64,000 nucleotides of DNA from Stappia sediminis (GCF_009826895.1 NZ_WUMV01000002.1:496001-560000); one strand, 5' to 3'; numbered from the stretch's first letter, positions 2,240 to 29,755 are shown. The notes: generated by a model not told the origin, from the sequence alone. Made by a program: numbers and translations.

Positions 2240-2260
2240 CCGGTTTCTTAGTATCTCCCG

Positions 2261-4493: not shown

Positions 4494-4515
4494 TCAGGCA
4501 AACCGGAAAGGTTCC

Positions 4516-6926: not shown

Positions 6927-7080
6927 TGGAAACTCTGAAATGCGAGGGTTTTGAAGCCTTATAGCAGGATTAAGTGTTGCCGGATCAATCACAAGGCGTT
7001 TTGTATGATAAAAATTCCCCGATTTGCGCGGATATTGCACGGCTAAGCCGCTTCCCATCCTGTCACGGTCGTGTTATTGA

Positions 7081-8685
<1,605 letters not shown>

Positions 8686-8743
8686 CGGTAATAAAAGAGG
8701 CCGACCGCACTGTGCCGATCGGTCCAAGTGGAGTGCTACTGGA

Positions 8744-10039: not shown

Positions 10040-10056
10040 AGGCTCCTAAGGAGCCT
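10040..10056. terminator. Hairpin between convergent rsmB-like and TPR genes
   Basis: A perfect 7 bp stem (AGGCTCC / GGAGCCT) with a TAA loop starts right at the rsmB-like stop, in the 49 bp gap before the stop of the opposing TPR gene. It lacks a long U-tract on either side. It could serve both converging transcripts. Confidence 0.4.
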
Positions 10057-10088
10057 GTTGGTATCCACGTGAGGAGCGCAGCCGCAGT

Positions 10089-12019: not shown

Positions 12020-12085
12020 ATATCTGCCACGAGAACGGGCGCTTTTTGGGTTTAAAACATAAAGGTAAGGGTCTAGAAGCGGCGC

Positions 12086-13633: not shown

Positions 13634-14144
13634 TTATTATTGTGTAAGTCATCTATTCAATTATCCAACAGCCCTCGCAATGGATTCCGAAAAACCCAAT
13701 TTCCAGCCTATACGCCTCAGTTTCCGTTATCTAATCAACAGGATTTCTAACAAAATATACGGAAACCGCCAATAAATTTGCGGATTTATGCTATATAAGA
13801 GGTGCATTTTCATATTAGTATACTGACATAGAGAGGAATAGTTGAAAAGTTATGCCGCAAATACAAAGCAAGGCTGTAGGCGACGAGAAAGAATGATGAG
13901 TTTTAAAATGTATTTATTTTAGTTTAAATATTGAGGTTGAAAAAATACTCAGGGAATTGTTAGTGCGAAATTTCCGAAGAGCTGAAAGCTTAAATGGATT
14001 CACTACAACGGCAGATGGTTGAAGCGAAGAAGCGTAAATATGCAGAAGCGTTGAAAAATTGAAAGAGTTTTGCAATGGGTTTGGCTTTAGGGCTGGGATG
14101 TTGAAGGGCTCGTTAGCTGATAGCAGGGAGAAGGATTTAAGAGT
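13634..14144. other. AT-rich intergenic start of the post-guaA island
   Basis: These ~510 bases are far richer in A/T than guaA. No gene of credible length is visible. Several very short open frames (for example from 13993, 22 codons) could be decayed coding sequence but have no recognisable content. A spaced dyad GTTTCCGTTAT / ATACGGAAAC brackets 13721-13766, and a weak hairpin there may end guaA transcription. No second copy of the guaA 3' end, as would mark an attachment-site repeat, was found within the window. Confidence 0.5.
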
Positions 14145-15530
14145 ATGGGGCGCTTAATTGATCAAGAATCTAACTACGCGGGGGATTTCGGTGCCGCTTT
14201 CCGTTCGTCTGCAATATTTTACAAGCCAAATGGCGTAAAAACGACAATCTCTTTTAGCAATTATTGGTATTTTAAAAACAGTTTGGAGGTTGGGCTTGTC
14301 GTTAGTTATCGCCGTATGAATGGAGAGTTGGTTACTCGGAAAGAATATAGATTTACTGCAGGAAATGTAATCAACATAGAAGTTTCGGAAATTGATGAAG
14401 GTTCGGTAGAGATTGAGGCATTCTCGAGCAAAAACCTAAAAATTCCCTACGCGGCAATTATGTGCGTTTACGAGACTGAAAATGGTGTTTCGATGGTGCA
14501 CAGTTATGGAAGAAATCATTCGCTGATAGAATTAGAAGACGATAGGGCTATTACAGAAGCACGAGAGAGCTGCTGGACGCTGCGTGCATCGCCTGGAATT
14601 CGCAACCAAGCTATATTTCACAACGGGCATGTTGCTTTAGAAGCGCAAACTGGTTTGTTTGTGATTACTAGCTCAGACGGCACAGAAGAAAAGATAGAAT
14701 TTAACATTCCTTCTCTCGCGCCGTTTGAGACGTTAGTGTTCGAAGCGGAGAATATTTTTCCCAAACTGCAAGACTTCTTGTCTGGAAATATTGGATGGGG
14801 AACGTTGCACTTTGAATCCTATTCAAGCTTCACTCGTTTGCTTATTGTTTGGTTGGATGAAAATAGCGATGAAATCCAAGTAACTCATTCGAATTTTGAC
14901 TACAGTTCGCATCAAACAAACATGATTTCTTCTTCGAAGCCCGCATATATGGCATTACCATCCGTTTATGGCGAGCTTCCGAGTGTAATAGTGTATCCAA
15001 AATTTTCCAAGGGGATCTATGTCGTTAATGGTGATACCGAATTCACTAATGGCACTGTCTTGTCTGGTTCGAAATCGGAAATTACATTCACGAGAGAAGA
15101 TGGACTACTACCAGCTCGCATTGTTACAGCTGCCAGTGCCAAACTATCGGAAGACGTCTCGTTACCTTTTGAATGCTCTTTGGGTATTATTCATGAAAAG
15201 CGGCCGCCGAAGCGGTTTCATTGGTTCTTAGTTTCTTCGGTTTTGCCTACTGTCATTCACTTGACAGCTTATGATAAAATATATCCGAGTGAAGGAAAAT
15301 TGAGTTTAGTTGTTAGGCTATACTCACAATCAAACAAGGAAGTTAGTGAGGTTGTCCTGAATTACGACTCACTGGTTAATTTGCCTGGGGAAATTAAGCT
15401 CGAGGATATCTTCAATTTAGATAACCTCGAAGGGTTCGGTTATGCATCAGTCTTCTCTCACTACGGTGGGTTGATTATTTACTCCTCATTACGCAAAAAC
15501 GACGTTGTTACAGTTGAGCACTCTTTCTAG
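14145..15530 (+). CDS. Hypothetical protein in AT-rich island (beta-rich, unrecognised family)
   Basis: A 461-residue open frame with a good ribosome site (GGGAGAAGG) 11 bases before the ATG and markedly AT-rich codon use, unlike the flanking guaA and rpiB. I do not recognise the family. The sequence is rich in alternating hydrophobic/polar strands (TTISFSNYWYF, LEVGLVVSYRRM, FSKGIYVVNGD) with few predicted helices. No signal peptide, membrane span or catalytic motif is evident. A repeating pattern of roughly 100-residue beta segments suggests tandem beta-sandwich domains; this is an impression, not a measured repeat. A decayed IS3-type transposase directly downstream supports horizontal acquisition. 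The intact length argues against recent decay. Confidence 0.75.
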   Translation: MGRLIDQESNYAGDFGAAFRSSAIFYKPNGVKTTISFSNYWYFKNSLEVGLVVSYRRMNGELVTRKEYRFTAGNVINIEVSEIDEGSVEIEAFSSKNLKIPYAAIMCVYETENGVSMVHSYGRNHSLIELEDDRAITEARESCWTLRASPGIRNQAIFHNGHVALEAQTGLFVITSSDGTEEKIEFNIPSLAPFETLVFEAENIFPKLQDFLSGNIGWGTLHFESYSSFTRLLIVWLDENSDEIQVTHSNFDYSSHQTNMISSSKPAYMALPSVYGELPSVIVYPKFSKGIYVVNGDTEFTNGTVLSGSKSEITFTREDGLLPARIVTAASAKLSEDVSLPFECSLGIIHEKRPPKRFHWFLVSSVLPTVIHLTAYDKIYPSEGKLSLVVRLYSQSNKEVSEVVLNYDSLVNLPGEIKLEDIFNLDNLEGFGYASVFSHYGGLIIYSSLRKNDVVTVEHSF

Positions 15531-15648
15531 GGGTATGATACTTCGAGTCAAAGCGGGAGTGGTGCGAAAGCCGAGGGATAACTAACGGTGACGATTGCAA
15601 GTTGTCGCAAGGGCGCATATATGCGGATCTGACGCCTTTTTAGTCGGC

Positions 15649-16070
15649 CTGTGGGTTACCCGTGAGTTCGGCGCGCTCATTCGTCGGCGCGCCAAACCGT
15701 CCACTATCGTCTCTGGCAGCGGAACCGAACTCACCTCGAATGCCATGCTTAAATAGCTTCAGGAACGCGGTGTTGAATACCGCTATATCGTACCGGGCAA
15801 CCCCATGCAGAACGGCTTCGTGGAAAGCTTCAACACGCAGGTGAGGGGCGGATGTCTGATTGATACGCTGTTTTCGTGACTCGCCAGCATCGGGAGTCAT
15901 ATCGCCGCGTCGGGGTAGATGACAGCCGCAAGAGGTTCCATTCAACCCTAGGCAATCTCATGCCCTGCGAATTTGCCATGAAAATGACTTTGCAAACACG
16001 GACCACAAGAGGCCATTGGTCAACCGAAGGGCTCCGCGCTAAAGTTGACGGGAGTTCGGGTCTCAAGTTC
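15649..16070 (+). pseudogene. Remnant of IS3-family transposase (orfB C-terminal part)
   Basis: The reading frame from 15649 gives an IS3-type integrase core: REFGALIRRRAKPSTIVS, then SGTELTSNAMLK, an in-frame TAG at 15754, LQERGVEYRYIVPGNPMQNG, FVESFNTQVRGGCLIDTLFS and a TGA at 15877. A shifted frame then continues with SRKRFHSTLGNLMPCEFAMK, the usual C-terminal block (RPHSxLGNLTPxEF). The second catalytic Asp expected in DNGTE is changed (GSGTE), while the catalytic Glu of VESFN remains. Two stops and a frameshift make it non-functional. No upstream orfA or clear IS ends are seen. Confidence 0.8.
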
Positions 16071-16542: not shown

Positions 16543-18987
16543 TCAGACTTTCACACGCTCCATCTTCGGATCGTATAGGGGGGAAAGCGCCACGCTGCAG
16601 GGCACCCTTTCGGTTGCGACTTCAAGCTCGTATTCGCCGTCGGCTATATAGTCCGCGCTCACGCCTGACGGATTGCGGATATAGCCCATGCCGATCGACC
16701 TGCCGATCGTGTGGCCGAAGCCTGCGGAAGACAGCCAGCCGACCCGTTCTCCATTGCGGTAGATCGTTTCGCGGCCAAGCAATATGATGCTCGGATCGGC
16801 GATGAAGGTCGCCATTCTTTTCTTCACGCCCTGCTGGCGTTGAGCCTCGATAGCGGCTCGTCCCTTGAAGTCGATGTTCTTTCTCATTTTCACCGCCCAG
16901 CCGAGGCCGGCCTCATCCGGGGTGTGATCGGGCCCAATGTCGGAAGACCAGGCGCGGTAGCCCTTCTCCAGGCGCAAGGTCTCTATCGCCCGATACCCGG
17001 CATTTACGAGACCGAGAGGGTCGCCGGCTTCGTGAAGCGCTGCATAAACGGTCGTTGTGTATTCCACCGGAATATGCAGCTCCCATCCGAGTTCGCCGAC
17101 GTATGTCACGCGCAGAGCAGTGACCGGGCAGCCGGCAATGCCGATTACATTGGCGGTGCCGAATGGGAACGCCTCGTTGGAGACGTCCGCCGATGTTACC
17201 TTGCTCAGGATATCCCGCGCCCTCGGTCCCATCAGCGACAAAACCGAATTCGATGAGGTGATGTCTACCAGCTGGGCATTCATGCCGTTGGGAATGTTTC
17301 GCGAAATCCAGTCGAAATCATGCGTCGCGAAGCCGGTGCCGGTGACGATGTAATATTCATCGGGCTTCATCCGGGCGACCGTCAGGTCGCACTCGATTCC
17401 GCCATGGTCGTTCAGCATCTGGGTGTAGACCAGACTGCCGACGGGCTTGTCGACATCGTTGGAGGCGATCCAGCTCAGCGCGTCGCAGGCATCCGGACCC
17501 TTGAGGATGAACTTTGCGAACGAGGTCTGATCGAAGAGCGCGGCCGCCTCTCGGCAGGCCTTGTGCTCGCGACCTACCGCGTCGTGCCAGTTCGGCCGTC
17601 CGAAGGTGTAGATATCCTTCTGCTCCTCTCCGGCAGCGGCATCAGCGTACCAGTTCGGCCGTTCCCAGCCGAGCTTTTCTCCGAACACTGCACCATTGGC
17701 CAGGAGTGTGTCGTAAAGCGGCGACTTCCTGCAGGGGCGGGCGGATCGGTTTTCCTCCGACGGCCATGCCATGGTGTAGTGCTTGCCGTACGCCTCGTAG
17801 GTGCGCTTTCTGATCCAGTCATCATCGAAATGAGGACGTCCGAAGCGGCGTATGTCGGCGGGCCAGAGGTCGAATGGCGCTTCCCCATTGCGTATCCATT
17901 CGGCCAATGCCATGCCGGCGCCGCCTCCGGACGCGATGCCGAAAGCGTTGAAACCCGCGCCGACGAAGAAGTTGCGTTGCTCCGGAGCTTCCCCGAGGAT
18001 GAACATGCCATCCGGCGTGAAACTTTCCGGCCCGTTGATCAGTTCCTTGATGCCCGCCGTTTCGAGGGCCGGGACCCGGCCAAGCGACAATTCCATCAGT
18101 TGCTCGAAATGGTCGAAATCGCTGTCGAGGAGCGTGTAGTGGAACCCCCTGGGAATGCCATCCTTTGCCCAGAGGACCGGGTTCGGTTCGTAGCCGCCCA
18201 TTACCAAACCGCCGACCTCTTCCTTGTAGTAGGTGAGGCGATCCGGGTCTCGCAGGGTCGGCAGATTGGAAGGCACGCCGTCTATCCGCTCCGTCACCAT
18301 GTACTGGTGCTCGACAGGGACGAGCGGCACATTGATGCCGTGGATTTTCGCGAATGCGCGCGTCCATTGCCCGCAGCAGGCAACGACCTTTTCGCAGTCG
18401 ACGCGCCCGTGTTCGGTCTCAACGCCCTTGATGACACCGTCCTGGATATCGACCGACAGTACCTTGGTGTCTTCGAATATCCTGGCGCCCGCCATTCTTG
18501 CGCCCTTCGCGAGCGCTTGCGTGATATCGGACGGATTTGCCTGTCCGTCCGTTGGCAGGAAGGCGGCGCCAACGACATCGTCGATATTCATCAGCGGCCA
18601 CAGATCGAGTGCTTCCTTCGGCGTCAGCAGCTGCATATCCAGGCCGAAGCTGTGAGCCGTCGTTGCCTGCCGGCGCACTTCCGTCCATCGTTCCTCGTTG
18701 CAGGCAAGGCGCAAGCCACCGTTCATTTTCCAGCCGGTCGCCTGTCCGGTTTCTTCCTCCAGCTTGTTGTACAGGTCAATCGAATATCCCAGAAGCTGGG
18801 TCACATTGGCGTTCGAACGCAACTGTCCGACAAGGCCCGCGGCGTGGAATGTCGTTCCGGACGTCAGCTTCTTGCGCTCGAACAGGACGACTTCGACCCC
18901 GGCCTTTGCAAGGTGATAGGCGGTCGAACAGCCGATAATGCCGCCGCCGATGACGATCACCTTGGAGGAGGAGGGAAGCTGGGTCAT
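16543..18987 (-). CDS. FAD-dependent dimethylglycine/sarcosine dehydrogenase-like protein (DAO + GcvT domains), copy 1
   Basis: An 814-residue two-part flavoenzyme. Residues 1-400 are a D-amino-acid-oxidase-type FAD domain (VIVIGGGIIGCSTAYHLAKAG, then TTFHAAGLVGQLRSN, where the His matches the residue that covalently holds FAD in mitochondrial DMGDH). Residues ~430-814 are the aminomethyltransferase-like folate-binding region (LGWELHIPVEYTTTV, RAIETLRLEKGYRAWSSD). The family oxidatively demethylates N-methylglycines and passes the one-carbon unit to tetrahydrofolate. Length matches the two-domain family. It is transcribed divergently from the DeoR regulator. AGAGGA precedes the ATG. It is similar along its whole length to the protein at 20370-22793. 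The actual methylated substrate is not known. Confidence 0.85.
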   Translation of the reverse strand: MTQLPSSSKVIVIGGGIIGCSTAYHLAKAGVEVVLFERKKLTSGTTFHAAGLVGQLRSNANVTQLLGYSIDLYNKLEEETGQATGWKMNGGLRLACNEERWTEVRRQATTAHSFGLDMQLLTPKEALDLWPLMNIDDVVGAAFLPTDGQANPSDITQALAKGARMAGARIFEDTKVLSVDIQDGVIKGVETEHGRVDCEKVVACCGQWTRAFAKIHGINVPLVPVEHQYMVTERIDGVPSNLPTLRDPDRLTYYKEEVGGLVMGGYEPNPVLWAKDGIPRGFHYTLLDSDFDHFEQLMELSLGRVPALETAGIKELINGPESFTPDGMFILGEAPEQRNFFVGAGFNAFGIASGGGAGMALAEWIRNGEAPFDLWPADIRRFGRPHFDDDWIRKRTYEAYGKHYTMAWPSEENRSARPCRKSPLYDTLLANGAVFGEKLGWERPNWYADAAAGEEQKDIYTFGRPNWHDAVGREHKACREAAALFDQTSFAKFILKGPDACDALSWIASNDVDKPVGSLVYTQMLNDHGGIECDLTVARMKPDEYYIVTGTGFATHDFDWISRNIPNGMNAQLVDITSSNSVLSLMGPRARDILSKVTSADVSNEAFPFGTANVIGIAGCPVTALRVTYVGELGWELHIPVEYTTTVYAALHEAGDPLGLVNAGYRAIETLRLEKGYRAWSSDIGPDHTPDEAGLGWAVKMRKNIDFKGRAAIEAQRQQGVKKRMATFIADPSIILLGRETIYRNGERVGWLSSAGFGHTIGRSIGMGYIRNPSGVSADYIADGEYELEVATERVPCSVALSPLYDPKMERVKV

Positions 18988-19082
18988 CTGGTCCTCTGAT
19001 TGCGTTGAGCCGCCGTCGGGCGGGTCCTTGATGCGTCTACGCGAGTCGTTTCCTCGCGATCAATGATCATTGCACCTTGAAA

Positions 19083-19169
19083 TCCACAATTACGCTTGAA
19101 ATATGCACGTCATCCCTCAAAAGTCCACAAAAGAGCTCGGGAATTCGTTGGATATTGTGATATTGTCAC
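19083..19169. promoter_or_regulatory. Putative DeoR operator half-sites in divergent promoter
   Basis: The 262 bp between the divergent dehydrogenase and deoR genes contains TCCACAAT (19083), GTCCACAAAAG (19123-19133) and ATATTGTGATATTGTCAC (19152-19169). These resemble, in both orientations, the TTTGTGGAA and ATTGTGTTG half-sites found upstream of the other dehydrogenase and of the transporter. Their arrangement is looser than in those two promoters. Autoregulation by the DeoR protein is an inference. Confidence 0.4.
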
Positions 19170-19249
19170 GAATGCCACGGTGAATGTGGCCTTGCGTGGG
19201 AGTTTCTGCCGGCGTAAGGCGTTCGGCCGGGCGAAGGAGGCTGATACGG

Positions 19250-20053
19250 ATGGATGCATACCCCAATCATACGCAACGGCAGATTCTGAACGAGTTGCGC
19301 AAGGTGGGTGGACTGCAAAAGATCAGCGTTCTTGCTGAAACGTTGGACATTTCCGGCGAGACCGTGCGGCGCAACGTCAAGCGGCTCGTCGAAATGGGAA
19401 CCGTGGAAAAATCGCACGGCAGCGTGCAGCTGATCGATCAGGAGGAACAGGAAGAAGGCAACCTTCAGGAGCGGCTGAACCTGAACCAGGCGGCCAAGAA
19501 ACGAATTGCCGGCTTTGTCGCAAGGATGATCCCCAACGAGTGCTCGCTCTTTTTGGATATCGGCAGTACCACCGCCTTCATCGCAGACGCACTTCGTGGT
19601 CACCGCAAACTCATGATCGTGACCAACTCGGTCTACGTCGCCTACCGGCTTTCCATGCGCAATGAGAACCGCGTGTTCATGGCGGGAGGTGAATTGCGGG
19701 GCGAAGATGGTGGTGCTTTCGGGGCCGATGCGATGGCATTCGTTTCCAATTTCCACACGGATTTCGCCATCCTTTCCACCGCGGGTCTCGATCCTCGAAA
19801 TGGCTTTACGCTTTTCGATCTGGAGGAAGCCAAGTTTTCCCGGCACATTATGGGAAATTCCGGCACCCGGATCATGGCTTGCGATTCAAGCAAGTTCGGA
19901 CGGGAAGGGGCGGTAACGATCGGCAATCCCGAGCAGGTTGACCACCTCGTGACCGACACCACACCGCCGGAGGCCTTGCAGGTTGCGATGCGCGACTGGG
20001 GCATCGAAGTGCACCTCGCCGATTGGGTCAAAAACGCCGCCGCAGGCTCTTGA
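19250..20053 (+). CDS. DeoR/GlpR-family transcriptional regulator
   Basis: A 267-residue DeoR-type repressor. The N-terminal helix-turn-helix (RQILNELRKVGGLQKISVLAETLDIS, then GETVRRNVKRLVEMGTVEK) is followed by the sugar-isomerase-like effector domain with LFLDIGSTTAFIADAL, IVTNSVYVAYRLS, GGELRGEDGGAFG and MACDSSKFGREGAVTIG. DeoR proteins usually sense phosphorylated metabolites. That fits the two small-molecule kinases in the cluster and suggests a phosphorylated inducer. The ATG at 19250 has a strong GGAGG ribosome site. It is transcribed divergently from the first dehydrogenase and is the only regulator in the 16-30 kb block. Confidence 0.88.
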   Translation: MDAYPNHTQRQILNELRKVGGLQKISVLAETLDISGETVRRNVKRLVEMGTVEKSHGSVQLIDQEEQEEGNLQERLNLNQAAKKRIAGFVARMIPNECSLFLDIGSTTAFIADALRGHRKLMIVTNSVYVAYRLSMRNENRVFMAGGELRGEDGGAFGADAMAFVSNFHTDFAILSTAGLDPRNGFTLFDLEEAKFSRHIMGNSGTRIMACDSSKFGREGAVTIGNPEQVDHLVTDTTPPEALQVAMRDWGIEVHLADWVKNAAAGS

Positions 20054-20260
20054 TGATTTAGTCCGGCCCGTTTCTTCCGGGGAGAGTTAAGGCAACGCCA
20101 TTGGAAAGCGGTTGTCGGTCGGCGGTCTTCTTGAAGATTCCCTGTTGGATTGAGTGGCGTGGGCAACTGCCTGCCGCCGGAGGTTTTGTCGCGTCCTGAA
20201 TTGAGGGAAGATTTGAACGGATGAATTTGAGTGGCGCCGAAATTTACGCTTGATGTGTGA

Positions 20261-20303
20261 AATAACACAAAAAGCTGCAAATTGTGTTGATATTTGTGGA
20301 AAC
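20261..20303. promoter_or_regulatory. Operator-like motif upstream of second dehydrogenase
   Basis: ATTGTGTTG at 20281-20289 and TTTGTGGAA at 20293-20301 are separated by three bases. The same two nine-mers with the same spacing occur at 24704-24724 before the transporter. An inverted AACACAA lies just ahead at about 20264-20270, giving a dyad AACACAA...TTGTGTT. The 316 bases between deoR and the dehydrogenase otherwise hold no gene. Confidence 0.6.
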
Positions 20304-20369
20304 ATATTGCCCATTTAAACGGAGAAAGCATCGGGAGTGTGGTTCGAATTGCATGATGGGGAGCCGGAA

Positions 20370-22793
20370 ATGAGCCGCCTTGAAGCAAAGCACCTGATCA
20401 TTGGCGGCGGCATCATTGGGTGCTCGATAGCCTATCATCTGGCCAGGAACGGCGAGAAGGATGTCGTGCTTCTGGAAAAGTCATCCCTGACCGAAGGTGC
20501 TACATGGCATGCCGCTGGTCTGATCGGTCAGCTTCGCTCTTCCCGGAACACGACCCGGATGCTGAAGCGTTCGGTTGCCATGTACGATAGTCTGGAAAAA
20601 GAAACCGGCATGGCTTTCGACTGGAAGAAAGTCGGCAGCCTGCGTCTCGCGGTCACGAAAGAACGTCTTCTGGAAGCCCGGCGCCTGACGACGATGGCGC
20701 GCAGCTTCGGTCTGGAAATGCATATGATTTCCGCAGAAGAGGCAAAGTCGCTTTTCCCTTATATCGATGCCACCGGACTTCTTGGCGCTGCCTATGTCCC
20801 CTCCGACGGTCATGTGGATCCGGCAAGCCTGACCCAGGCGATCGCATCCGCCGCGCGAAAAGCCGGCGTAAAGATCAGGCAGGGCATCAAGGTTGAGGGT
20901 TTTGAAGTCGATGAAGGCCGCATCACCAAGGTGCAGACAAATGGGGGGGATTATTCGGCTGATGTCGTTGTCCTTGCCGCCGGCATGTGGAGCCGGGAAC
21001 TTGGCGCGAAGCTTGGAATTCGTGTGCCGGCATGCGCCGTCGAGCATCAGTACATCGTTACCGAACCTCTGCCGGATGTGGAACTGGTCAGGAACCTGCC
21101 AACGCTGCGCGATCCGGAGCGGCTGGTCTATTACAAGCCCGATGCCGGCGGGCGGCTGGTAATCGGTGGATATGAAGAGGGGACATTACCGTTCGGGGAA
21201 AACGGAATTCCCGGAGAATTCGCCCGTCAACTTCTTCCTGACAATCTGGATCGGTTTGGGCCGCTAGCCGAGCTTGCCGCCGAGGTGACACCCGTCTTGA
21301 ACGAGGTCGGTATCAGGACCGTGATCAATGGACCTATCCCATATTCCGCCGATGGCGACTTCGTGATGGGCTGGGCGCCAGGCTTCGATAATCTGATGAT
21401 GGCCACCGGCTTTTTATACGGTATTGCCGCCGGTGGCGGTGCGGGCGAAATGATTGCCGAATGGATTACGCAGGGGCGCCCGAGCCTGGATCTCTGGCCA
21501 CTCGACATTCGTCGCTTCGGTCCGCATCACGGGACGAAAGCCTTCATGTATCCCCGCGCGGTGGAGCATTATGCCCACCATTACAAGATGCGTTATCCAG
21601 GTCAGGAGCACGAGAGCGCCCGCCAGCTCCGTCTTTCGCCGCTCTATGGCATCCTGAAGGAGCGTGGCGCGGTCTATGGATCCAAGAACGGCTGGGAACG
21701 GCCTTTGTGGTTCGCGCCCGAAGGTGTGGAACCTGTCGACCAGCTCGACTTCCTCGAACCCGGCTGGCACAAATACGCCGCCGAGGAACACAAGGCGGTC
21801 CGCGAAGGCGTGGCGTTGATCGACCAGTCGAGCTTTTCAAAGTTCGAGATGATTGGTCCGGGCTCTCTCGATCTCCTGCAAAAGATTGCGGCCTGCAACA
21901 TGGACAGGCCCACGGGTTCGGTCATCTACGCCCAGTTGTGCAACGACCGCGGCGGGATCGAGGCGGATGTGACGGTCACCCGGCTCGGAAGAGACCATTT
22001 CTATATAATCACCGGTTCGGGCTTCGGCACGCACGATGCGGACTGGATTCGTCGGCACATGCCGAAGGATGGCTCGGTGCAGTTGATCGAGATGACCTCG
22101 GCGCGTGCGGTCATCAACATTTGCGGCCCGAAGTCACGCGATGTCTTGCAAGCGGTTTGCGAGCAGGATGTTTCCAACGACGCGTTTCCCTTCGCAACAG
22201 CGCGGGAAATTGTCATCGGGGCGGCCCCGGTACGTGCGGCGCGGATCGGCTTTGTCGGCGAACTGGGGTGGGAGCTGCATGCGCCAACCGAATTCGGCGC
22301 TCATGTCTATAGCGTTCTGCGCGAAGCCGGTGAACCGTTCGGGATCCGCGATGTTGGCTATCGTGCGATCGACAGTCTGCGCCTTGAGAAAGGTTATCTC
22401 TATTGGTCCGCCGATATTTCTCCCGACTATACGCCTCTCGAAGCCGGATTGGGTTTTCGGGTTCATCTGAAATCGGGTGGTGCTTTCCTCGGCCGAGATG
22501 TGCTGGCAAGGCAGAAAGCAGAGGGGGTGCAGCGTAAACTCTGCACTTTCGTTACCGATGCAAGGCTTCCGGTTTTCGGTGGCGAGACTATCCTCCATGG
22601 CGGTGAAACGGTCTCGCTCGCGACGTCGGCAGGCTTCGGTCACACCGTCGGCAAGTCAATCATCTTCGGATATCTGGGTGCCGAACTGTGGGATCGCGAG
22701 GCATTCGAGATCGAGGTCTTTGGAAACCGCCATCCAGTCGAGCGTGTGGACGGGCCGCTTTACGATCCGCGAAACGAACGGTTGAAAGCCTGA
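20370..22793 (+). CDS. FAD-dependent dimethylglycine/sarcosine dehydrogenase-like protein (DAO + GcvT domains), copy 2
   Basis: An 807-residue paralogue of the flavoprotein on the opposite strand at 16543-18987. FAD domain: HLIIGGGIIGCSIAYHLARNG and ATWHAAGLIGQLRSSRNTT, with the candidate covalent-FAD His. C-terminal folate/GcvT half: FVGELGWELHAPTEF and RAIDSLRLEKGYLYWSADIS. The ATG at 20370 is chosen over GTG 20337 because GGGGAG is suitably placed. It is followed after 10 bases by a choline-kinase-like gene, so the two form an operon. Having two divergent paralogues in one cluster suggests sequential removal of two methyl groups or two related substrates. This is an inference. Confidence 0.85.
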   Translation: MSRLEAKHLIIGGGIIGCSIAYHLARNGEKDVVLLEKSSLTEGATWHAAGLIGQLRSSRNTTRMLKRSVAMYDSLEKETGMAFDWKKVGSLRLAVTKERLLEARRLTTMARSFGLEMHMISAEEAKSLFPYIDATGLLGAAYVPSDGHVDPASLTQAIASAARKAGVKIRQGIKVEGFEVDEGRITKVQTNGGDYSADVVVLAAGMWSRELGAKLGIRVPACAVEHQYIVTEPLPDVELVRNLPTLRDPERLVYYKPDAGGRLVIGGYEEGTLPFGENGIPGEFARQLLPDNLDRFGPLAELAAEVTPVLNEVGIRTVINGPIPYSADGDFVMGWAPGFDNLMMATGFLYGIAAGGGAGEMIAEWITQGRPSLDLWPLDIRRFGPHHGTKAFMYPRAVEHYAHHYKMRYPGQEHESARQLRLSPLYGILKERGAVYGSKNGWERPLWFAPEGVEPVDQLDFLEPGWHKYAAEEHKAVREGVALIDQSSFSKFEMIGPGSLDLLQKIAACNMDRPTGSVIYAQLCNDRGGIEADVTVTRLGRDHFYIITGSGFGTHDADWIRRHMPKDGSVQLIEMTSARAVINICGPKSRDVLQAVCEQDVSNDAFPFATAREIVIGAAPVRAARIGFVGELGWELHAPTEFGAHVYSVLREAGEPFGIRDVGYRAIDSLRLEKGYLYWSADISPDYTPLEAGLGFRVHLKSGGAFLGRDVLARQKAEGVQRKLCTFVTDARLPVFGGETILHGGETVSLATSAGFGHTVGKSIIFGYLGAELWDREAFEIEVFGNRHPVERVDGPLYDPRNERLKA

Positions 22794-22803
22794 GGAGAGA
22801 TTT

Positions 22804-23733
22804 ATGGTGCAACATGCGGACTCGGTCATTTCAGCCCTTCGCAAGGCCCCCGGCTTTTCCGATCTCAAGGCTGAGGAATGTTCGATAACGCGCCTCGGCG
22901 GGCTCACCAATCTGGTGCATCGGGTTTCAGCGCCTCAGGGCGATGTGATCGTCCGCATACCTGGCGAAGGCACGGAGGAATATATCGACCGCGCGGTAGA
23001 GGCCACCAACGCCAGGGCCGCGCATCGTGCCGGGGTCTCGCCGGAAGTGTTATGGGCGGATGCCGAAACTGGAGTGATGATCACGCGCGCCATCGATGGC
23101 ATCACCACCATGACGCCCGATCTCTTCAAATCCCGCTCAGGCTCGCCTGCTCGGGCCGGCCAAGCACTGGCGAAACTGCATCGTTCGGGTGAAACGTTCG
23201 ACTTCCGGTTCGAGCTGTTTTCCATGATCGACGGATATCTGAAAGTGCTCTCCACGAAGGATACGGATCTGCCTGAAGGGTATCATGGCATCGTCAAGGC
23301 GGCGGAACCGGTCAAGGAAGTTCTAGCAGCCAGTCGGGTGCAACTGGCCCCCTGTCATTGCGACCCGCTTTGCGAAAACTTCCTGGACGACGGCGAGATC
23401 ATGTGGATCGTCGACTGGGAATATTCAGGCATGAACGATCCATTGTGGGATGTGGGCGATCTCTCGGTCGAGGCGGGGATGGACGAAAGGCAGGAAGCTG
23501 AGCTCCTGCGCGGTTATTTCGGCAGGAACCCGAGCGCGGCGGAGAAGGGACGCGTCGTGATCTACAAGGCGATGTGCGATCTGCTCTGGACCTTGTGGGG
23601 GCTGATCCAGCATGCCGACGGCAATCCGGCGGAAGATTTCTGGGCCTATGCCACCACCCGGTTCGAGCGCTGCAAGGCGCTGATGCAGAGTGCGGAATTC
23701 GACAGCCACGTTGCAGCGATACGCGCCGTATAG
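22804..23733 (+). CDS. Choline/ethanolamine-kinase-like phosphotransferase (APH fold), copy 1
   Basis: A 309-residue kinase-like protein. A glycine-rich N-lobe (SITRLGGLTNLVHRVSAP) precedes the invariant Lys-equivalent region VIVRIPGEGTEEYIDR. The Brenner motif is CHCDPLCENFL (Asp base, Asn metal ligand), followed by the metal-binding IVDWEYSGMNDPLWDVG. This pattern (H-x-D-x4-N plus DWEY) is characteristic of choline/ethanolamine and related small-alcohol kinases. Context, with a betaine-type transporter and N-demethylating flavoproteins, suggests an N-methylated amino alcohol as substrate. It lies 10 bases after the dehydrogenase gene and is cotranscribed. The target is not proven; the APH superfamily also includes antibiotic kinases. 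Confidence 0.82.
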   Translation: MVQHADSVISALRKAPGFSDLKAEECSITRLGGLTNLVHRVSAPQGDVIVRIPGEGTEEYIDRAVEATNARAAHRAGVSPEVLWADAETGVMITRAIDGITTMTPDLFKSRSGSPARAGQALAKLHRSGETFDFRFELFSMIDGYLKVLSTKDTDLPEGYHGIVKAAEPVKEVLAASRVQLAPCHCDPLCENFLDDGEIMWIVDWEYSGMNDPLWDVGDLSVEAGMDERQEAELLRGYFGRNPSAAEKGRVVIYKAMCDLLWTLWGLIQHADGNPAEDFWAYATTRFERCKALMQSAEFDSHVAAIRAV

Positions 23734-23787
23734 AGGCCAATTCGATTTAATGACCGTCTTGTTCGCTGCCATGCGTCCGGCAATTTT

Positions 23788-24564
23788 TCAGGCGTCGATT
23801 ACGGCGAGCAATTCGTCGCGTAGCGCCGGGGTCGCGGCGGTGACGACACGGCCGTCCGAGTCGATGCCGAGCGGATTGCCCTTCCAGTCGCTCATCACGC
23901 CGCCTGCGGCTGCGACAAGCCCAACCAGAGGAAGATAGTCGTAAGGCTCCAGTCCGAAATCCACCACCGCGTCGATCTGTCCCGAGGCGACGAGCGCATG
24001 GGGATAGCAATCATAGGCCATGCGCCGGGTATGGCCTGTCCTGCAAAGGCGAAAGAAGCGCTCCGGGTCATCGGCGCTCAGCCGTTCTGCCTCATTGATA
24101 TAGACCATGGCCTCGCCAAGGCGTGTAGTGTCGCGGCAGGTTATCGTCTCTCCATTGCGCGTGGCGCGCTGGCCCGAAAAGCCGACATAGGTTTCATTCA
24201 GCGCGGGCATGCGCACGATGCCGATTTGCGGGGTACCGTTCACGATGCGCCCGAGCAACATTCCAAACAGCGGATTTCCTGTAATGAACGACCGCGTGCC
24301 ATCGATCGGGTCGATGAACCAGATCGCGTCTGCGCCCTGATTTTCGGTTCCGAACTCTTCGCCGAAAATCCCGTCATCGGGAAAAGCTTCGGCCAGTTCC
24401 TTGCGTATGAAGGCTTCCGTTGACCGGTCCGCGATGGTCACCGGGCTGTCGTCGGCCTTGGCCTCCAGATCGAGCGGAGAGCGGAAATATTCCATCGGGA
24501 TGCGGCTTGCCCGCTCCACGATTTTGCTCGCCCGTCGGACAATATCGTCGATATCGGCTTCCAT
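23788..24564 (-). CDS. Inositol monophosphatase-family phosphatase (HisN-like)
   Basis: A 258-residue IMPase-superfamily Mg2+-dependent phosphatase. Metal-site motifs are visible: the Glu pair in DDGIFGEEFG, WFIDPIDGTRSFITGNPLFG (the DPxDG motif) and the C-terminal LEPYDYLPLVGLVAAAGG (Asp ligand). The DGTRSFITG wording is typical of the HisN type of histidinol-phosphatase common in Hyphomicrobiales. The start is the ATG at 24564. Its position, divergent from the transporter and sharing its promoter region with the repeated operator, suggests a dedicated role in dephosphorylating a cluster metabolite. A housekeeping histidine role cannot be excluded. Confidence 0.82.
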   Translation of the reverse strand: MEADIDDIVRRASKIVERASRIPMEYFRSPLDLEAKADDSPVTIADRSTEAFIRKELAEAFPDDGIFGEEFGTENQGADAIWFIDPIDGTRSFITGNPLFGMLLGRIVNGTPQIGIVRMPALNETYVGFSGQRATRNGETITCRDTTRLGEAMVYINEAERLSADDPERFFRLCRTGHTRRMAYDCYPHALVASGQIDAVVDFGLEPYDYLPLVGLVAAAGGVMSDWKGNPLGIDSDGRVVTAATPALRDELLAVIDA

Positions 24565-24685
24565 GTTTTTTCCGCTCGGTCCGGCCGCCAGTTGGCTGTC
24601 GTTGCAGCCGATAACTGGCACTGCGCGTGATGGCATTGTGAAGGTTATGCAAAAGCACGCCGGACCGCCACAGATAAGCGCATAT

Positions 24686-24724
24686 TTCCACAAAATCTGT
24701 TGGATTGTGTTGCGTTTTGTGGAA
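24686..24724. promoter_or_regulatory. Operator-like motif between phosphatase and transporter genes
   Basis: A perfect 10 bp inverted repeat TTCCACAAAA (24686-24695) / TTTTGTGGAA (24715-24724) brackets ATTGTGTTG (24704-24712). The arrangement ATTGTGTTG, three bases, TTTGTGGAA is identical to that upstream of the second dehydrogenase. It lies in the divergent promoter region of the HisN-like phosphatase and the periplasmic binding protein and so could regulate both. Confidence 0.65.
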
Positions 24725-24790
24725 TCGTTGATACGTTTTATGCCGGTCGTCAAAAAGATCGGGCGAGGAAAACCAGCGGGGAATATTGAG

Positions 24791-25732
24791 ATGGCACGTA
24801 AACTCCTGGCGGCTGTGGCTGCCTTCTCCACCTTGGCGGTTCATGGCGCGTTGGCGGAACCGGAATCGACCGACCCGATCAAGCTGACTACCCATGACTG
24901 GACCGGTCAGATTGTGACCACGACGATCATGGGCGAGGTGCTGAAGAACGCCGGTTACAATGTCGAATATGTCCAGGCCGACTACATCGCCCAGTTCGCA
25001 GGGTTGAAAACCGGTGATCTCCACGTCGCCATGGAGATTTGGGAAACGACCGGCCGCGAAGCGATGGATGAAGCGACTGCCACCGGCAATGTCGTGAACA
25101 TGGGCGAAACGGGGATGGTCGCGATCGAGGAGTGGTGGTACCCGGCCTATATGGCGGACGTTTGCCCCGGTCTGCCGGATTGGAAAGCGCTGAACGACTG
25201 CGCTGAGGAATTCGCGACGCCGGAAACCGCGCCGCTCGGACGCTATCTCGGCGGGCCGGTCACCTGGGGCGGCTTTGACGATGAACGCGTTGAAGCCCTC
25301 GGGATGGATTTCGAAGTCGTCCATGCCGGCACGGATGCGGCTCTCTTTGCAGAGCTTGAATCCGCCTATCAACGCAAGGCGCCGATCGTGCTCTGGCTCT
25401 ACACCCCTCACTGGGCGCCGTCGAAATACGAAGGCAGTTTCGTGAAATTCCCGCCTTATTCGGCGGAATGTTACAACGATCCGTCAGTCGGCATTAATCC
25501 CGACGCCGCTTATGACTGTGGCAAGCCGACGGGGCCGATCTGGAAAGTCGCGTGGAAAGGCGTCGAGGAAAAATGGCCGGGCGCGGCGAAAGCGATAAAG
25601 GCTTTCAAGGTCAGCAACGCGGATATGGGCGAGATGGTCGCAAAGGTCGATCTTCAGGGAATGTCCGTCGATGACGTGGTTGCCGAGTGGATGGCGGCCA
25701 ACAAAGATAGCTGGAGTTCCTGGGCGCAGTAA
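24791..25732 (+). CDS. Glycine betaine-type ABC transporter substrate-binding protein (OpuAC/ProX family)
   Basis: A 313-residue periplasmic protein with a signal peptide of about 22 residues (ending in HGALAEP). The mature part is an OpuAC/ProX-type domain. Aromatic residues likely to cage a quaternary ammonium are seen in THDWTGQ, EIWETTG, EEWWYPAYM and LWLYTPHWAP. There are several cysteines (ADVCPGLP, NDCAEEF, AECYNDP, YDCGKP) that could form two disulphides. It heads a four-gene operon with the ATPase, permease and a kinase. It binds a betaine-like ligand by family; which one is unknown. Confidence 0.88.
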   Translation: MARKLLAAVAAFSTLAVHGALAEPESTDPIKLTTHDWTGQIVTTTIMGEVLKNAGYNVEYVQADYIAQFAGLKTGDLHVAMEIWETTGREAMDEATATGNVVNMGETGMVAIEEWWYPAYMADVCPGLPDWKALNDCAEEFATPETAPLGRYLGGPVTWGGFDDERVEALGMDFEVVHAGTDAALFAELESAYQRKAPIVLWLYTPHWAPSKYEGSFVKFPPYSAECYNDPSVGINPDAAYDCGKPTGPIWKVAWKGVEEKWPGAAKAIKAFKVSNADMGEMVAKVDLQGMSVDDVVAEWMAANKDSWSSWAQ

Positions 25733-25744
25733 TGAAAACTTTAT

Positions 25745-25770
25745 CGGCGGTGTCTCCAACGGCACCGCCG
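25745..25770 (+). terminator. Intercistronic hairpin after binding-protein gene
   Basis: CGGCGGTG / CACCGCCG form an 8 bp stem with a 10-base loop, followed by TTATTG, between the binding-protein and ATPase genes. Such partial attenuators often give excess binding protein over the membrane components; that role is inferred. Confidence 0.5.
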
Positions 25771-25812
25771 TTATTGTGTCTGACGACCTGATGCTCAAGA
25801 CCGGAGTTGGCG

Positions 25813-26841
25813 ATGGAGCGCCCCGTCATCCTTGATTGCCGCGGAGTGTGGAAACTTTACGGGCCTCATACCAGGAATTTTCTTGAAAAACATAACGGCT
25901 CGCCCACCGACATGGCTTTGGCGGAAGCCAACATCATCAGCGCGGTGCGCGATGCCAGCGTGAAAATCCGCAAGGGCGAAATTTTCGTCATCATGGGTTT
26001 GTCGGGATCGGGCAAGTCCACGTTGGTGCGTTGCCTGTCCCGTCTCGTCGAGCCGACGGCAGGCGAAATCCGCTTCGAGGGCAGCGATCTGCTGGCGATG
26101 AGCGAGAACGAACTCATTCATCTGCGGCGGAAGAAGATGGGCATGGTGTTTCAGCACTTTGCCTTGTTGCCGCACCTCACGGTGCTTCAGAACGCGGCCT
26201 TTCCGCTTGATGTTCAGGGCGTGGATCGCCGCACTCGCGAGGAAAAGGCGCGCCAGATGATCGACATCGTCGGTCTGACCGGGAGGGAAGATTACTATCC
26301 CCGGCAGTTGTCCGGTGGCCAGCAGCAGCGCGTCGGCATTGCCCGCTCGCTTGTCGCAGATCCTGACCTGTGGTTCCTCGACGAACCGTTTTCGGCGCTG
26401 GATCCGCTTATTCGCCGTGAGATGCAGGATGAGTTTCTCCGGCTTCAATCGATGTTACAAAAGACGATTGTCTTCATCACGCATGATTTCGACGAGGCGA
26501 TCCGGCTTGCAGATCGTATTGCGGTCATGAAGGGCGGGCGCATCGAGCAGACGGCCACGCCCGAGGAACTGGTTCTCAATCCTTCGACGCCTTATGTCGA
26601 GGAGTTCACGCGCCACGTTCCGCGCGCCAAGGTGATGAAACTGCGCTCCGTCATGTCGCCGGATGTTCCCGATGGCGTCTACGCGGGGGAACTTTCGGGC
26701 AATCGGACCGTCGCGGATACAATCCATCAGATCGATGCCGCGACGCACCCCTTCAAGGTGACCGGGGAAGAAGGCGAGGTCATCGGAACCATCGATGCCC
26801 GCACCGCGATAGACGTCATGATCGGGCGGACCGGCGCATGA
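25813..26841 (+). CDS. Glycine betaine-type ABC transporter ATP-binding protein (ProV/OpuAA family)
   Basis: A 342-residue ABC ATPase. Walker A is GLSGSGKSTLVRCLSRLVEP, the Q-loop region is MVFQHFALLPH, the signature LSGGQQQRVGIARSL, Walker B LWFLDEPFSALD and the switch His FITHDFDEA. It has the insertions typical of the ProV class, N-terminally a long segment before Walker A (YGPHTRNFLEKHNGSPTD). The C-terminal ~80 residues are a reduced regulatory region with one CBS-like stretch. The ATG at 25813 has CGGAG six bases ahead. Its stop overlaps the permease start by four bases. Confidence 0.92.
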   Translation: MERPVILDCRGVWKLYGPHTRNFLEKHNGSPTDMALAEANIISAVRDASVKIRKGEIFVIMGLSGSGKSTLVRCLSRLVEPTAGEIRFEGSDLLAMSENELIHLRRKKMGMVFQHFALLPHLTVLQNAAFPLDVQGVDRRTREEKARQMIDIVGLTGREDYYPRQLSGGQQQRVGIARSLVADPDLWFLDEPFSALDPLIRREMQDEFLRLQSMLQKTIVFITHDFDEAIRLADRIAVMKGGRIEQTATPEELVLNPSTPYVEEFTRHVPRAKVMKLRSVMSPDVPDGVYAGELSGNRTVADTIHQIDAATHPFKVTGEEGEVIGTIDARTAIDVMIGRTGA

Positions 26842-28883
26842 CGGATGGGGTGCACAATCGTGCTCGCCCGGCCCGGGCCCCGACAGCGGGTCTAAGCGGC
26901 TTCCCATCCTTTTCGGCGGTCTTCTGGATAGGGCTTTTTCTTGTCACCTGGGCGCTGTCGACATGGTCGTTTGCGCTTTACAAGACGTTCGATGCGCGCT
27001 GGATCATCCGCTATCCCAAGAAGCTTGAAATTCCCCTCGATACATGGATTTCCAACGCAACCAACTGGCTTGTCGAGGATTTGAATTTCGGGTTCTTCAC
27101 CTTTCGCGATGTTACGCGTTTCATCTCCGCCATTATCGAAGCGCCTTACGACATCATGCGTTCATTGCTGGTCGACGGCTTCATGATCGGGCAGGGGCAG
27201 CAGGCGATTGACGTCGCGCCGCCACTCAGTTGGATCGCGATTATCTCAATTGCCGTTTCGCTTGCACTTTATGCAAAGGACCGGTGGCTTGCCATTCTGG
27301 TTGGCGTTTGCTTTGCCTATCTCGCTGCCTTCGGACAGTGGGATAGCGCCATGGTTACACTGGCTTCGGTGCTGATAGCCGTTCCCATCGGTGTTGCCGG
27401 GGGGCTTGCGCTTGGCATCGTCGCCTACCGGCTGCCGGCGTTCGAACGGATGTTGCGTCCCGTTCTGGACCTGATGCAGACCGTGCCTGTCTTCGCCTAT
27501 CTCGTGCCTATTCTGGTGCTGTTCGGCTTTGGCCCCGTGGCCGCGTTGATCGCAACCGTGATCTACGCCATGCCGCCGATGGTGCGCATCTCGACAGTGG
27601 CGCTCCATTCGGTGCCCGAAGAGGTGATCGAGGCAGGTCGCATGGTCGGGTGCCGGCGCGGTCAGCTCATGTGGAAGGTCCTGATCCCGACCGCAATGCC
27701 GTCTCTCATGGTTGGCGTCAACCAGGTCATCATGCTTACCCTCAATATGGTGATTATCGCATCGATGATCGGAGCAGGCGGGCTTGGCTACGACGTTTTG
27801 ACGGCGTTGCGACGCCTCGACATCGGCGGCGGCATAGAGGCGGGGCTCGCCATCGTCGTAATGGCCATCGCGCTGGACCGTCTAAGTCAGGCATTCGCCG
27901 TAAGGCGCGTGCGCCCGCACCTGGATCCGCAGCTGCCTTTTCACAAACGCCATCCCGTTTTTACGCTTGTCGTTGCAATTGCTGTCTTTACGACACTCGC
28001 GGGCGCCTATCTTCCGGCATTTCGTGAATATCCGGCAAGGCTGACTTTGACCACGGGAACGTTCTGGAACTCCACAATCGAGTGGATCAACGTCAATTTC
28101 TTCGATTCGATCGAGGCCGTAAAAACTGTCCTGCTGAACGTCCTGCTGCTTCCGGTAAAGCGGTTCTTCACAGGCATTCCATGGGCTTGGGGTATCGTTG
28201 TGGTCGGCCTGGCGGCGGCGCGCATATGCGGCTGGAAGCTTGGCGTCATGGCGGCGGCGATGACTTTTTTCATCGCCGCATCCGGCCTTTGGCGCGAGGC
28301 GATGACCACCGTCTACCTTTGTTCGGTTTCAGTGTTGATCGCGAGCGTGATCGGTATCCCGCTGGGCATTTGGGCCGGTCAGAATCCAAGAGCCAACTCG
28401 GTCATCGGTGCGATGATCGACACGCTGCAGACGTTGCCTAGTTTCGTTTATCTTATCCCGGTGGTGATGCTTTTCCGTGTGGGCGATTTTTCGGCGATGA
28501 TAGCGGTTGTGCTTTATGCGCTGGCGCCGGCCGTGCGTTACGCCGCGCACGGGATCCGCTCGGTCGATGAAGAGTTGATAGAAGCCGGAAAGGTGTCCGG
28601 CTGCACCAGCCGCCAGATCCTTTGGCGGATCAAGTTGCCTCTCGCTGCGCCGTCGCTTCTCCTGGGCCTGAACCAGACCATCATGCTGGCGATTTCGATG
28701 CTCGTCATAACGGCGCTCGTCGGCACGCGCGACCTCGGTCAGGAGGTCTATATCGCTCTCACCAAGGCCAACATAGGCCAGGGCATCGTCGCCGGCCTTT
28801 CGGTGGCCTTCATCGCGATCATCGCGGATCGGGTGGTCACGGCGCTTGCACGGTCCTCTCAACAAAAGCTGGGGCTGACATGA
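26838..28883 (+). CDS. Glycine betaine-type ABC permease, tandem-duplicated (two permease domains)
   Basis: A 681-residue membrane protein, about twice the size of a typical ProW permease. Each half carries a BPD transporter domain with its EAA loop: EEVIEAGRMVGCRRGQLMW in the first and EELIEAGKVSGCTSRQILWR in the second. These are followed by homologous helices (VGVNQVIMLTLNMVIIASM and LGLNQTIMLAISMLVITAL). The halves join near residue 360. A single chain thus likely supplies both membrane subunits that normally dimerise. Start and stop overlap neighbouring genes by four bases on each side, so coupling is tight. Confidence 0.9.
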   Translation: MTDGVHNRARPARAPTAGLSGFPSFSAVFWIGLFLVTWALSTWSFALYKTFDARWIIRYPKKLEIPLDTWISNATNWLVEDLNFGFFTFRDVTRFISAIIEAPYDIMRSLLVDGFMIGQGQQAIDVAPPLSWIAIISIAVSLALYAKDRWLAILVGVCFAYLAAFGQWDSAMVTLASVLIAVPIGVAGGLALGIVAYRLPAFERMLRPVLDLMQTVPVFAYLVPILVLFGFGPVAALIATVIYAMPPMVRISTVALHSVPEEVIEAGRMVGCRRGQLMWKVLIPTAMPSLMVGVNQVIMLTLNMVIIASMIGAGGLGYDVLTALRRLDIGGGIEAGLAIVVMAIALDRLSQAFAVRRVRPHLDPQLPFHKRHPVFTLVVAIAVFTTLAGAYLPAFREYPARLTLTTGTFWNSTIEWINVNFFDSIEAVKTVLLNVLLLPVKRFFTGIPWAWGIVVVGLAAARICGWKLGVMAAAMTFFIAASGLWREAMTTVYLCSVSVLIASVIGIPLGIWAGQNPRANSVIGAMIDTLQTLPSFVYLIPVVMLFRVGDFSAMIAVVLYALAPAVRYAAHGIRSVDEELIEAGKVSGCTSRQILWRIKLPLAAPSLLLGLNQTIMLAISMLVITALVGTRDLGQEVYIALTKANIGQGIVAGLSVAFIAIIADRVVTALARSSQQKLGLT

Positions 28884-29755
28884 ATGGGCTGGAACAAGCC
28901 ATAGCAAGAGCGCGGGCACTGCCTTGCTGGAGCGACCCGCGAGAGATCGAACCGCTTGAGGGCGGTATAACAAATCTTAATCTGACGCTGATGGACCGGG
29001 GCCGAAAATACGTCGTTCGCTTCGGAGACGATATCCCCGAACACGGCGTGATGCGGTTCAACGAACTTGCAATCAGCCGTGCCGCGGCAGCGGCCGGGAT
29101 TTCGCCGGCGGTGCATCATGTCGAAGCCGGCATTCTCGTGCTTGAATTCGTAGAGGCCGCGCCGCTGGCCGAAACGGATCTACACGACCAGGCTACGCTT
29201 GAGGATGTGGCACACCTCATTGCCCGGGCGCACCGTGAGGTTACAGCGCTCGCGCGTGGTCCGATCGTGACGTTCTGGGTGTTCCATATCCTTCGCGACT
29301 ACGCGGGATTTTTATCCAGCCGAAATTCTCCCCACGTTTCCAAGCTCCCACGGCTGATGCAGGAAGCCGAAAATCTCGAAAAAGCCGTCGGCAAGGTTGA
29401 TCTGGTGCTTGGGCACAACGACCTTTTGCCCGCGAATATTCTGCGAGGAGAAGATCGGTTCTGGCTCGTGGACTGGGAATACGGCGGCTTCAACTCGCCG
29501 CTGTTCGATCTCGGCGGTCTTGCGACCAATTGCGGCCTGCCGGATGAGGCAGAGCGGTTCCTGCTCAAGACCTATTTCGGTGCGGAGCCGGACGCCGGCC
29601 TGAAGCAGAGCTACAATGCGATGAAATGCGCCTCTCTGCTGCGCGAGACGATGTGGAGCATGGTATCTGAACTCACGTCCTCCATCGAATTCGATTATCG
29701 CGCCTATACAGATTCCAATCTCGACCGTTACCGGCGGGCTTACGAAAAGCTTTGA
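28880..29755 (+). CDS. Choline/ethanolamine-kinase-like phosphotransferase (APH fold), copy 2
   Basis: A 291-residue kinase-like protein related to the gene at 22804-23733. N-lobe: PLEGGITNLNLTLMDRGRKYVVRFGDD. Brenner motif: LVLGHNDLLPANIL. Metal loop: FWLVDWEYGGFNSPLFDLGG. It overlaps the permease stop by four bases, so it is made with the transporter and could trap the imported compound by phosphorylation. That role is inferred from position and family. Two different kinases in one cluster suggest either two substrates or two steps. Confidence 0.82.
   Translation: MNGLEQAIARARALPCWSDPREIEPLEGGITNLNLTLMDRGRKYVVRFGDDIPEHGVMRFNELAISRAAAAAGISPAVHHVEAGILVLEFVEAAPLAETDLHDQATLEDVAHLIARAHREVTALARGPIVTFWVFHILRDYAGFLSSRNSPHVSKLPRLMQEAENLEKAVGKVDLVLGHNDLLPANILRGEDRFWLVDWEYGGFNSPLFDLGGLATNCGLPDEAERFLLKTYFGAEPDAGLKQSYNAMKCASLLRETMWSMVSELTSSIEFDYRAYTDSNLDRYRRAYEKL

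Follow-up and report, generated by a model that had tools for sequence, protein, structure and literature searches.

A candidate DeoR-controlled gene cluster in Stappia sediminis for the catabolism of N-methylated ethanolamines by way of phosphorylated intermediates

The gene cluster considered here lies at positions 16543-29755 of a 64,000-nucleotide window of the Stappia sediminis genome (GCF_009826895.1, NZ_WUMV01000002.1:496001-560000), and consists of nine genes, all of them intact open reading frames (ORFs), assigned with Pfam and NCBIfam models. The first, DH1 (16543..18987, minus strand), encodes a predicted N-demethylase of 814 aa of the dimethylglycine dehydrogenase (DMGDH) type, dependent on flavin adenine dinucleotide (FAD) and tetrahydrofolate (THF), which scores 520 bits to DMGDH 4P9S. 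It is followed on the plus strand by deoR (19250..20053), a DeoR-family regulator (PF08220 and PF00455), DH2 (20370..22793), a second DMGDH-type flavoenzyme of 807 aa, and kin1 (22804..23733), a choline-kinase-like kinase (PF01633/PF01636) and close homologue of the uncharacterised Mesorhizobium loti structure 3DXQ (405 bits). Beyond a HisN/IMPase-like phosphatase on the minus strand (23788..24564; PF00459), the plus strand encodes an ABC transporter composed of a TmoX-like periplasmic binding protein of the OpuAC type, SBP (24791..25732; 277 bits to TmoX, 4XZ6), a ProV-type ATPase (25813..26841; TIGR01186, 332 bits) and a double ProW/ChoW-type permease (26838..28883; TIGR03416, 436 bits), the last two exceeding the model cut-offs. 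The cluster closes with kin2 (28880..29755, plus strand; PF01633), a choline/ethanolamine-kinase-like kinase with a changed cation pocket. Start codons were revised for deoR (19250), DH2 (20370), the phosphatase (24564, minus strand), SBP (24791) and kin2 (28880). Everything that an earlier note on this DNA had listed, namely two flavoenzymes, two kinases, a phosphatase, an ABC transporter and a DeoR regulator, is present. We regard it as somewhat probable that these genes form a DeoR-controlled regulon that catabolises N-methylated ethanolamines via phosphorylation, flavin- and folate-dependent demethylation, and dephosphorylation to ethanolamine.

The window contains four copies of the octamer TTTGTGGA, each within one of the three regulatory intergenic regions of the cluster (DH1/deoR, deoR/DH2 and phosphatase/SBP), which together make up about 1.3% of its length. 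The operator-like sites comprise TTTGTGGA in the DH1/deoR gap (19124..19131, minus strand), TGTTGATATTTGTGGAA 5' of DH2 (20285..20301, plus strand) and TGTTGCGTTTTGTGGAA in the phosphatase/SBP gap (24708..24724, plus strand), the latter with an inverted partner TTTGTGGA at 24687..24694 (minus strand). The 17-mer long form TGTTGNNNTWTGTGGAA has two mismatch-free sites across the 4.79-Mb genome, those at 20285 and 24708, and its reversed control has none; because the pattern was derived from these same two sites, it is the genome-wide uniqueness, and not the match, that serves as the test. Similar sites, judged by eye, are found at equivalent places in three relatives (L009-L011). The confinement of the sites to the intergenic regions of the cluster makes a shared regulator likely, in line with the earlier proposal of a regulon, and the cluster's own DeoR would be the protein acting at these putative operators. 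The deoR gene is present in 21 of the 24 loci that carry both kin2 and SBP.

The earlier note had also called for a search for the same cluster in other genomes. A GTDB scan with kin2 yielded 13 further loci, four of which hold the full nine-gene set (in three of them the locus ends within DH1), in the same order in Hongsoonwoonella and Roseibium and rearranged in Hwanghaeella and Marinosulfonomonas. This recurrence in four other lineages indicates that the cluster is not a chance assembly. Among 385 sampled alphaproteobacterial genomes, kin2 was detected in 47 at E<=1e-20 and in 42 at E<1e-50 (about 11%), some of them only 1.4 Mb in size; within the focal family it is present in 22 of 61 genomes.

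Across the Alphaproteobacteria, the genes split into two kinase-demethylase modules, kin2-DH1 (module 1) and DH2-kin1 (module 2). The kin2 gene immediately adjoins DH1 in 50 of 63 loci, a pairing that holds also where neither transporter nor phosphatase is near, and true kin1 lies immediately 3' of DH2 in 10 of 12. Such fixed partnerships speak for the predicted coupling of a kinase to a demethylase. In addition, 13 of the 385 genomes have kin1, and all but one of those (12/13) have kin2 as well, compared with 42/385 overall (Fisher p = 7e-12, an optimistic value given that related genomes are not independent). Module 2 is thus nested in module 1, as expected from sequential steps in which module 2 feeds module 1. 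The core kin2-DH1 pair is kept even in streamlined genomes: in three 1.4-Mb genomes of one family (f33; L093, L095 and L097) it lies near EtfA, EtfB and ETF-QO.

Regarding the kinases, the Brenner motif (catalytic Asp and Asn) and the DxE motif are present in 12/12 kin1 sequences, and in kin2 Asp194 and the catalytic Asp176 are found in 63/63 and the Brenner-motif Asn181 in 62/63. The two differ in their predicted cation pockets. Compared with the choline-binding residues described for LicA (PMC4364537), kin1 carries the full cage (equivalents of Tyr197, Glu213, Trp251, Trp254 and Tyr268), the LicA WxxW having been placed by pairwise alignments and its fixed distance to Tyr268. In kin2, one cage Trp is replaced by Glu in 61/63 sequences and the Glu213 equivalent by Asn in 63/63, so the preferred amine of this kinase is probably another one, perhaps with fewer methyl groups. 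The possibility raised earlier that the kinases act on unrelated sugars or antibiotics finds no support in the sequences, kin1 keeping the choline-binding pocket of LicA.

Both flavoenzymes show the DAO, FAO_M, GCV_T and GCV_T_C domain layout. The covalent His48, the dyad His227/Tyr253 and the folate-site acidic residue Asp534 are conserved in 58/58 sequences (47/47 DH1 and 11/11 DH2), the catalytic His/Tyr dyad being that described for dimethylglycine oxidase (DMGO) and human DMGDH (PMC5082570). Transfer of the one-carbon unit to folate, as proposed earlier, agrees with this conservation and with the FolD, PurU and ETF genes located next to the module in Salipiger. Nine residues past the covalent His, Arg57 is likewise invariant in 58/58 sequences, where rat DMGDH has His, and DMGO and two paralogues of the focal genome have Asn; Arg250 is typical and Lys87 mostly kept as further extra basic residues. 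These residues, and Arg57 in particular, are hypothesised to bind the substrate phosphate. In a tree of 64 flavoenzymes, built with a quick method with SH-aLRT support and containing long branches, DH1 and DH2 form separate clades, both distinct from two further FAD-GcvT enzymes encoded in the focal genome. The kinase pairing and Arg57 argue indirectly against dimethylglycine or sarcosine as the substrate, and would be compatible with demethylases acting on a phosphorylated amine. Glycine betaine degradation was rejected as the role of the cluster, since the kinases would be superfluous and the genome has, outside the cluster, further FAD-GcvT enzymes as well as a sarcosine-oxidase-like locus.

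Another explanation for the presence of kinases is that the demethylases act on free dimethyl- and monomethylethanolamine, and that the phospho-amines serve a different use, for example as the inducer of DeoR or as lipid head-group precursors. This would suit the unchanged DMGDH core of DH1 and DH2, the frequent lack of the phosphatase, which is present in just 10 of 24 transporter-bearing loci, and the usual role of choline kinases in the synthesis of lipids or teichoic acids (PMC4364537). We consider it unlikely, as kin2 stays joined to DH1 even away from transporter and phosphatase, the annotated loci showed no cytidylyltransferase, and the extra invariant basic residues of DH1 and DH2 are missing from their relatives.

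The binding protein offers indications about the imported compound. From the trimethylamine N-oxide (TMAO) pocket of TmoX (W55, W102, F106, E131, W177, F220 and W222; PMC8918994), SBP departs at three of the seven positions: W55, W102, E131 and W177 are kept, and 23-24 of 24 relatives share the substitutions F106G, F220W and W222Y. A small methylated amine that bears a polar oxygen and slightly exceeds TMAO in size would suit this pocket, and SBP is best described as a protein predicted to work like TmoX and not classed as TmoX. TmoX proteins also bind choline, with a Kd of 2.5 uM in HTCC1062 (PMC8918994), which, together with the full choline cage of kin1, would fit a pathway starting from choline, where phosphocholine is made first, another enzyme removes the first methyl group and the cluster handles the second and third. 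Genes in three other loci point the same way: a BHMT-like methyltransferase gene lies beside kin2 in L093, a BetA-like enzyme is encoded with SBP and permease in L097, and in L104 (G261 C1:181001-201000, 2773-10358) an MttB-family methyltransferase gene stands between two DMGDH-type genes and an adjoining kin2-like kinase. The Arg57 equivalent is present in one of the two flavoenzymes of L104 and not in the other; this locus possibly encodes a complete route from phosphocholine to phosphoethanolamine within one organism. For the cluster itself, a choline start is distinctly improbable, given that no quaternary-amine demethylase (MttB type, Rieske GbcAB or BHMT) is encoded within it and that DMGDH-type enzymes work on tertiary and secondary amines.

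The identity of the amino-alcohol backbone is suggested by the genes that adjoin the module in several relatives. In Salipiger abyssi (L022) and an Octadecabacter metagenome-assembled genome (L016), the operon runs on past kin2-DH1 into genes for an N-formylglutamate-amidohydrolase-like enzyme (GGAH), a glutamine-synthetase-like (GS-like) enzyme, aldehyde dehydrogenase (ALDH) and iron alcohol dehydrogenase (FeADH), with ETF, FolD and PurU in between in the former and an AraC-type regulator in the latter, and in both cases without the ethanolamine TRAP transporter. This enzyme set is induced on phosphoethanolamine in Phaeobacter MED193 and has been assigned to the gamma-glutamylation of ethanolamine (PMC10132767). 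Parts of it also follow DH1 directly elsewhere: ALDH in Hwanghaeella (L011; 77% identity), and FeADH in two other Salipiger and in G257 (L014, L015 and L080; 66, 64 and 52% identity). EutH, an ethanolamine permease, is encoded after kin2-DH1 in Nitratireductor OM-1 and G159 (L029 and L106). The focal genome itself holds, on another contig (C12, locus L127), a complete ethanolamine operon with genes for RpiR, amidohydrolase, TRAP transporter, GS-like enzyme, ALDH and Fe-ADH, in the order reported in PMC10132767. It is with fair confidence, then, that the amino-alcohol backbone anticipated in the earlier note can be proposed to be ethanolamine. Ethanolamine ammonia-lyase was rejected as the downstream step, as EutB was not found in the focal genome and rarely co-occurs with kin2. 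The glutamine-synthetase neighbour in a Shinella locus (L024) was also discarded as support, since it does not match the ethanolamine enzyme.

The phosphatase reaches 226 bits on TIGR02067, under the equivalog cut-off of 275, and the true HisN of the genome is encoded elsewhere (C12:778243; 308 bits). A role in histidine biosynthesis was discarded on these grounds; the cluster enzyme is a paralogue of HisN and is proposed to be a phosphoethanolamine phosphatase.

In the proposed pathway, the TmoX-type transporter would import dimethylethanolamine and/or monomethylethanolamine. Kin1, with its full aromatic cage, would phosphorylate the hydroxyl of the dimethyl compound, and kin2, with the altered cage, that of the monomethyl compound, so that the phosphate would provide the acidic group needed by DMGDH-type enzymes, which otherwise take amino acids. 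DH2 and then DH1, as phospho-monomethylethanolamine demethylase, would take off the methyl groups in FAD-dependent oxidations, tetrahydrofolate accepting the one-carbon units as methylene-THF. Ethanolamine would then be set free from phosphoethanolamine by the HisN-like phosphatase and would enter the gamma-glutamylation pathway encoded elsewhere in the genome. At the level of comparative sequence evidence, the earlier idea of a phosphorylated N-methylated amino alcohol with folate transfer is supported by the gene content, the pairing into modules and their nesting, the shared operators and the linkage to ethanolamine genes in several relatives. The phosphorylated intermediates, and with these the phosphorylated demethylase substrate, are inferred, as are the order of steps, the division between dimethyl and monomethyl compounds, the compound acted on by the phosphatase, and the inducer.

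Several observations, besides the patchy presence of the phosphatase, weigh against this pathway. Arg57 could not be placed in a structure, as the AlphaFold model of DH1 is poor in that region (pLDDT averages 68 and drops under 50 near the active site). A single phosphorylation would suffice for both demethylations, which leaves the second kinase superfluous unless both amines are imported, and one genome (G015) has kin1 without kin2. Among the 385 genomes, kin2 co-occurs with the ethanolamine GS homologue little above chance (7/42, one-sided p = 0.17) and with EutB no more than by chance (2/42); most kin2 carriers must therefore handle the product otherwise. The same lack of genome-wide co-occurrence would be expected if the backbone were another N-methylated hydroxy compound, such as an amino acid or a sugar amine, and the ethanolamine links were peculiar to a few lineages. 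With ethanolamine genes adjoining the module in several lineages and an SBP pocket of the small TMAO/choline kind, this version seems to us just as improbable as the choline start.

Some other genetic contexts deserve mention. A DsrC-like protein (PF04358) is encoded immediately 3' of DH1 in three marine Rhodobacteraceae loci, L017 (3382-3831), L018 and L021. In Shinella and Roseateles plasmids (L024 and L032-L034), a DeoR/kin2-DH1 unit adjoins a sugar ABC transporter/GlpD-like cluster, joined in L024, L033 and L034 by FrmR-DmeF, a metal/formaldehyde-sensitive repressor, which would fit formaldehyde release in demethylation. A different cassette of variable content, with an Opp-type ABC transporter, a Zn-dependent hydrolase, two APH/choline-kinase-like kinases, HisN/IMPase and DeoR, is found on Ri/opine and other plasmids: L030 (pRi1724; 1-10435), L039 (pAoF64/95) and L037 (Paracoccus yeei pYEE1; 1-10938), the last followed by EutB-EutC. 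It points to a parallel route, likewise based on kinases, for an N-substituted ethanolamine, for instance an amide. Adjoining the Stappia cluster, an ORF of 461 aa without Pfam match (14145-15530) lies in a dip of G+C content (0.497 over 12001-16000, against about 0.60 in the surroundings), possibly a recent acquisition.

Bacterial and eukaryotic lipids carry dimethyl- and monomethylethanolamine as head groups; both compounds also arise when choline is broken down and are used in industry. A literature search of open-access papers found no aerobic bacterial pathway for them, a description elsewhere being possible, and the cluster is widespread but, to that extent, undescribed. If the proposed pathway is correct, it ties phospholipid turnover to the supply of one-carbon units and nitrogen, and provides many proteins labelled 'FAD-dependent oxidoreductase' or 'phosphotransferase', as well as homologues of the orphan structure 3DXQ, with a function. 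The underlying principle, for which we see about equal grounds for acceptance and doubt, would be that N-methylated amino alcohols are made acidic by phosphorylation and so become substrates of duplicated DMGDH-type flavoenzymes under aerobic conditions, with two nested kinase-demethylase modules, dimethyl and then monomethyl, reversing phosphobase methylation to yield ethanolamine and methylene-THF.

Among known systems, the dimethylglycine dehydrogenases and oxidases of glycine betaine degradation (4P9S, 5L46 and 1PJ5) have in common with DH1 and DH2 the domain layout, the covalent His, the His/Tyr dyad and the folate-site acidic residue, whereas the invariant Arg57, mostly with Lys87 and Arg250, and the near-constant kinase neighbour are additions of DH1 and DH2. 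Compared with the choline kinase LicA (4R77), kin1 keeps the whole choline pocket except Val178 (Leu) and kin2 lacks one Trp of the cage and the counterpart of Glu213; neither is accompanied by teichoic-acid or lipopolysaccharide genes. The binding protein of the TMAO transporter TmoXWV (4XZ6) shares Trp55, Trp102, Glu131 and Trp177 with SBP, in which the changes of Phe106 to Gly, Phe220 to Trp and Trp222 to Tyr likely leave room for a larger ligand. In two genomes, kin2-DH1 is followed by the four enzyme genes of the EtoVWX/gamma-glutamylation pathway known from Phaeobacter MED193 (PMC10132767), and the focal genome has the full operon; the Phaeobacter route imports ethanolamine itself, whereas the cluster would supply it from methylated precursors.

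The closest precedent is the Mth system of Eubacterium limosum (MthK with MthB, MthC and MthA), a phosphocholine route found in 2025 in a gut bacterium, of which the cluster would be the aerobic counterpart. There, the corrinoid demethylase MthB acts on phosphocholine supplied by the choline kinase MthK and yields dimethylaminoethanol phosphate; the pair is reported from Firmicutes and delta-proteobacteria, and the acidic-group argument for phosphate tagging has been made likewise (PMC12155760). The common idea is that phosphorylation by a LicA-like kinase makes an N-methylated ethanolamine acceptable to a demethylase whose family usually acts on carboxylated amines, the methyl group passing to THF; should the proposed pathway be right, phosphate tagging would have arisen in N-demethylation alongside two demethylase chemistries unrelated to each other. 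No MttB-superfamily methyltransferase, corrinoid protein or MthA is encoded among the nine genes of the cluster. The E. limosum route is anaerobic, uses a corrinoid methyltransferase, takes the quaternary phosphocholine and ends at dimethylaminoethanol phosphate, whereas the cluster has flavin/THF enzymes for tertiary and secondary amines, along with a transporter, a phosphatase and an ethanolamine pathway, and would carry on from that endpoint aerobically with unrelated demethylases.

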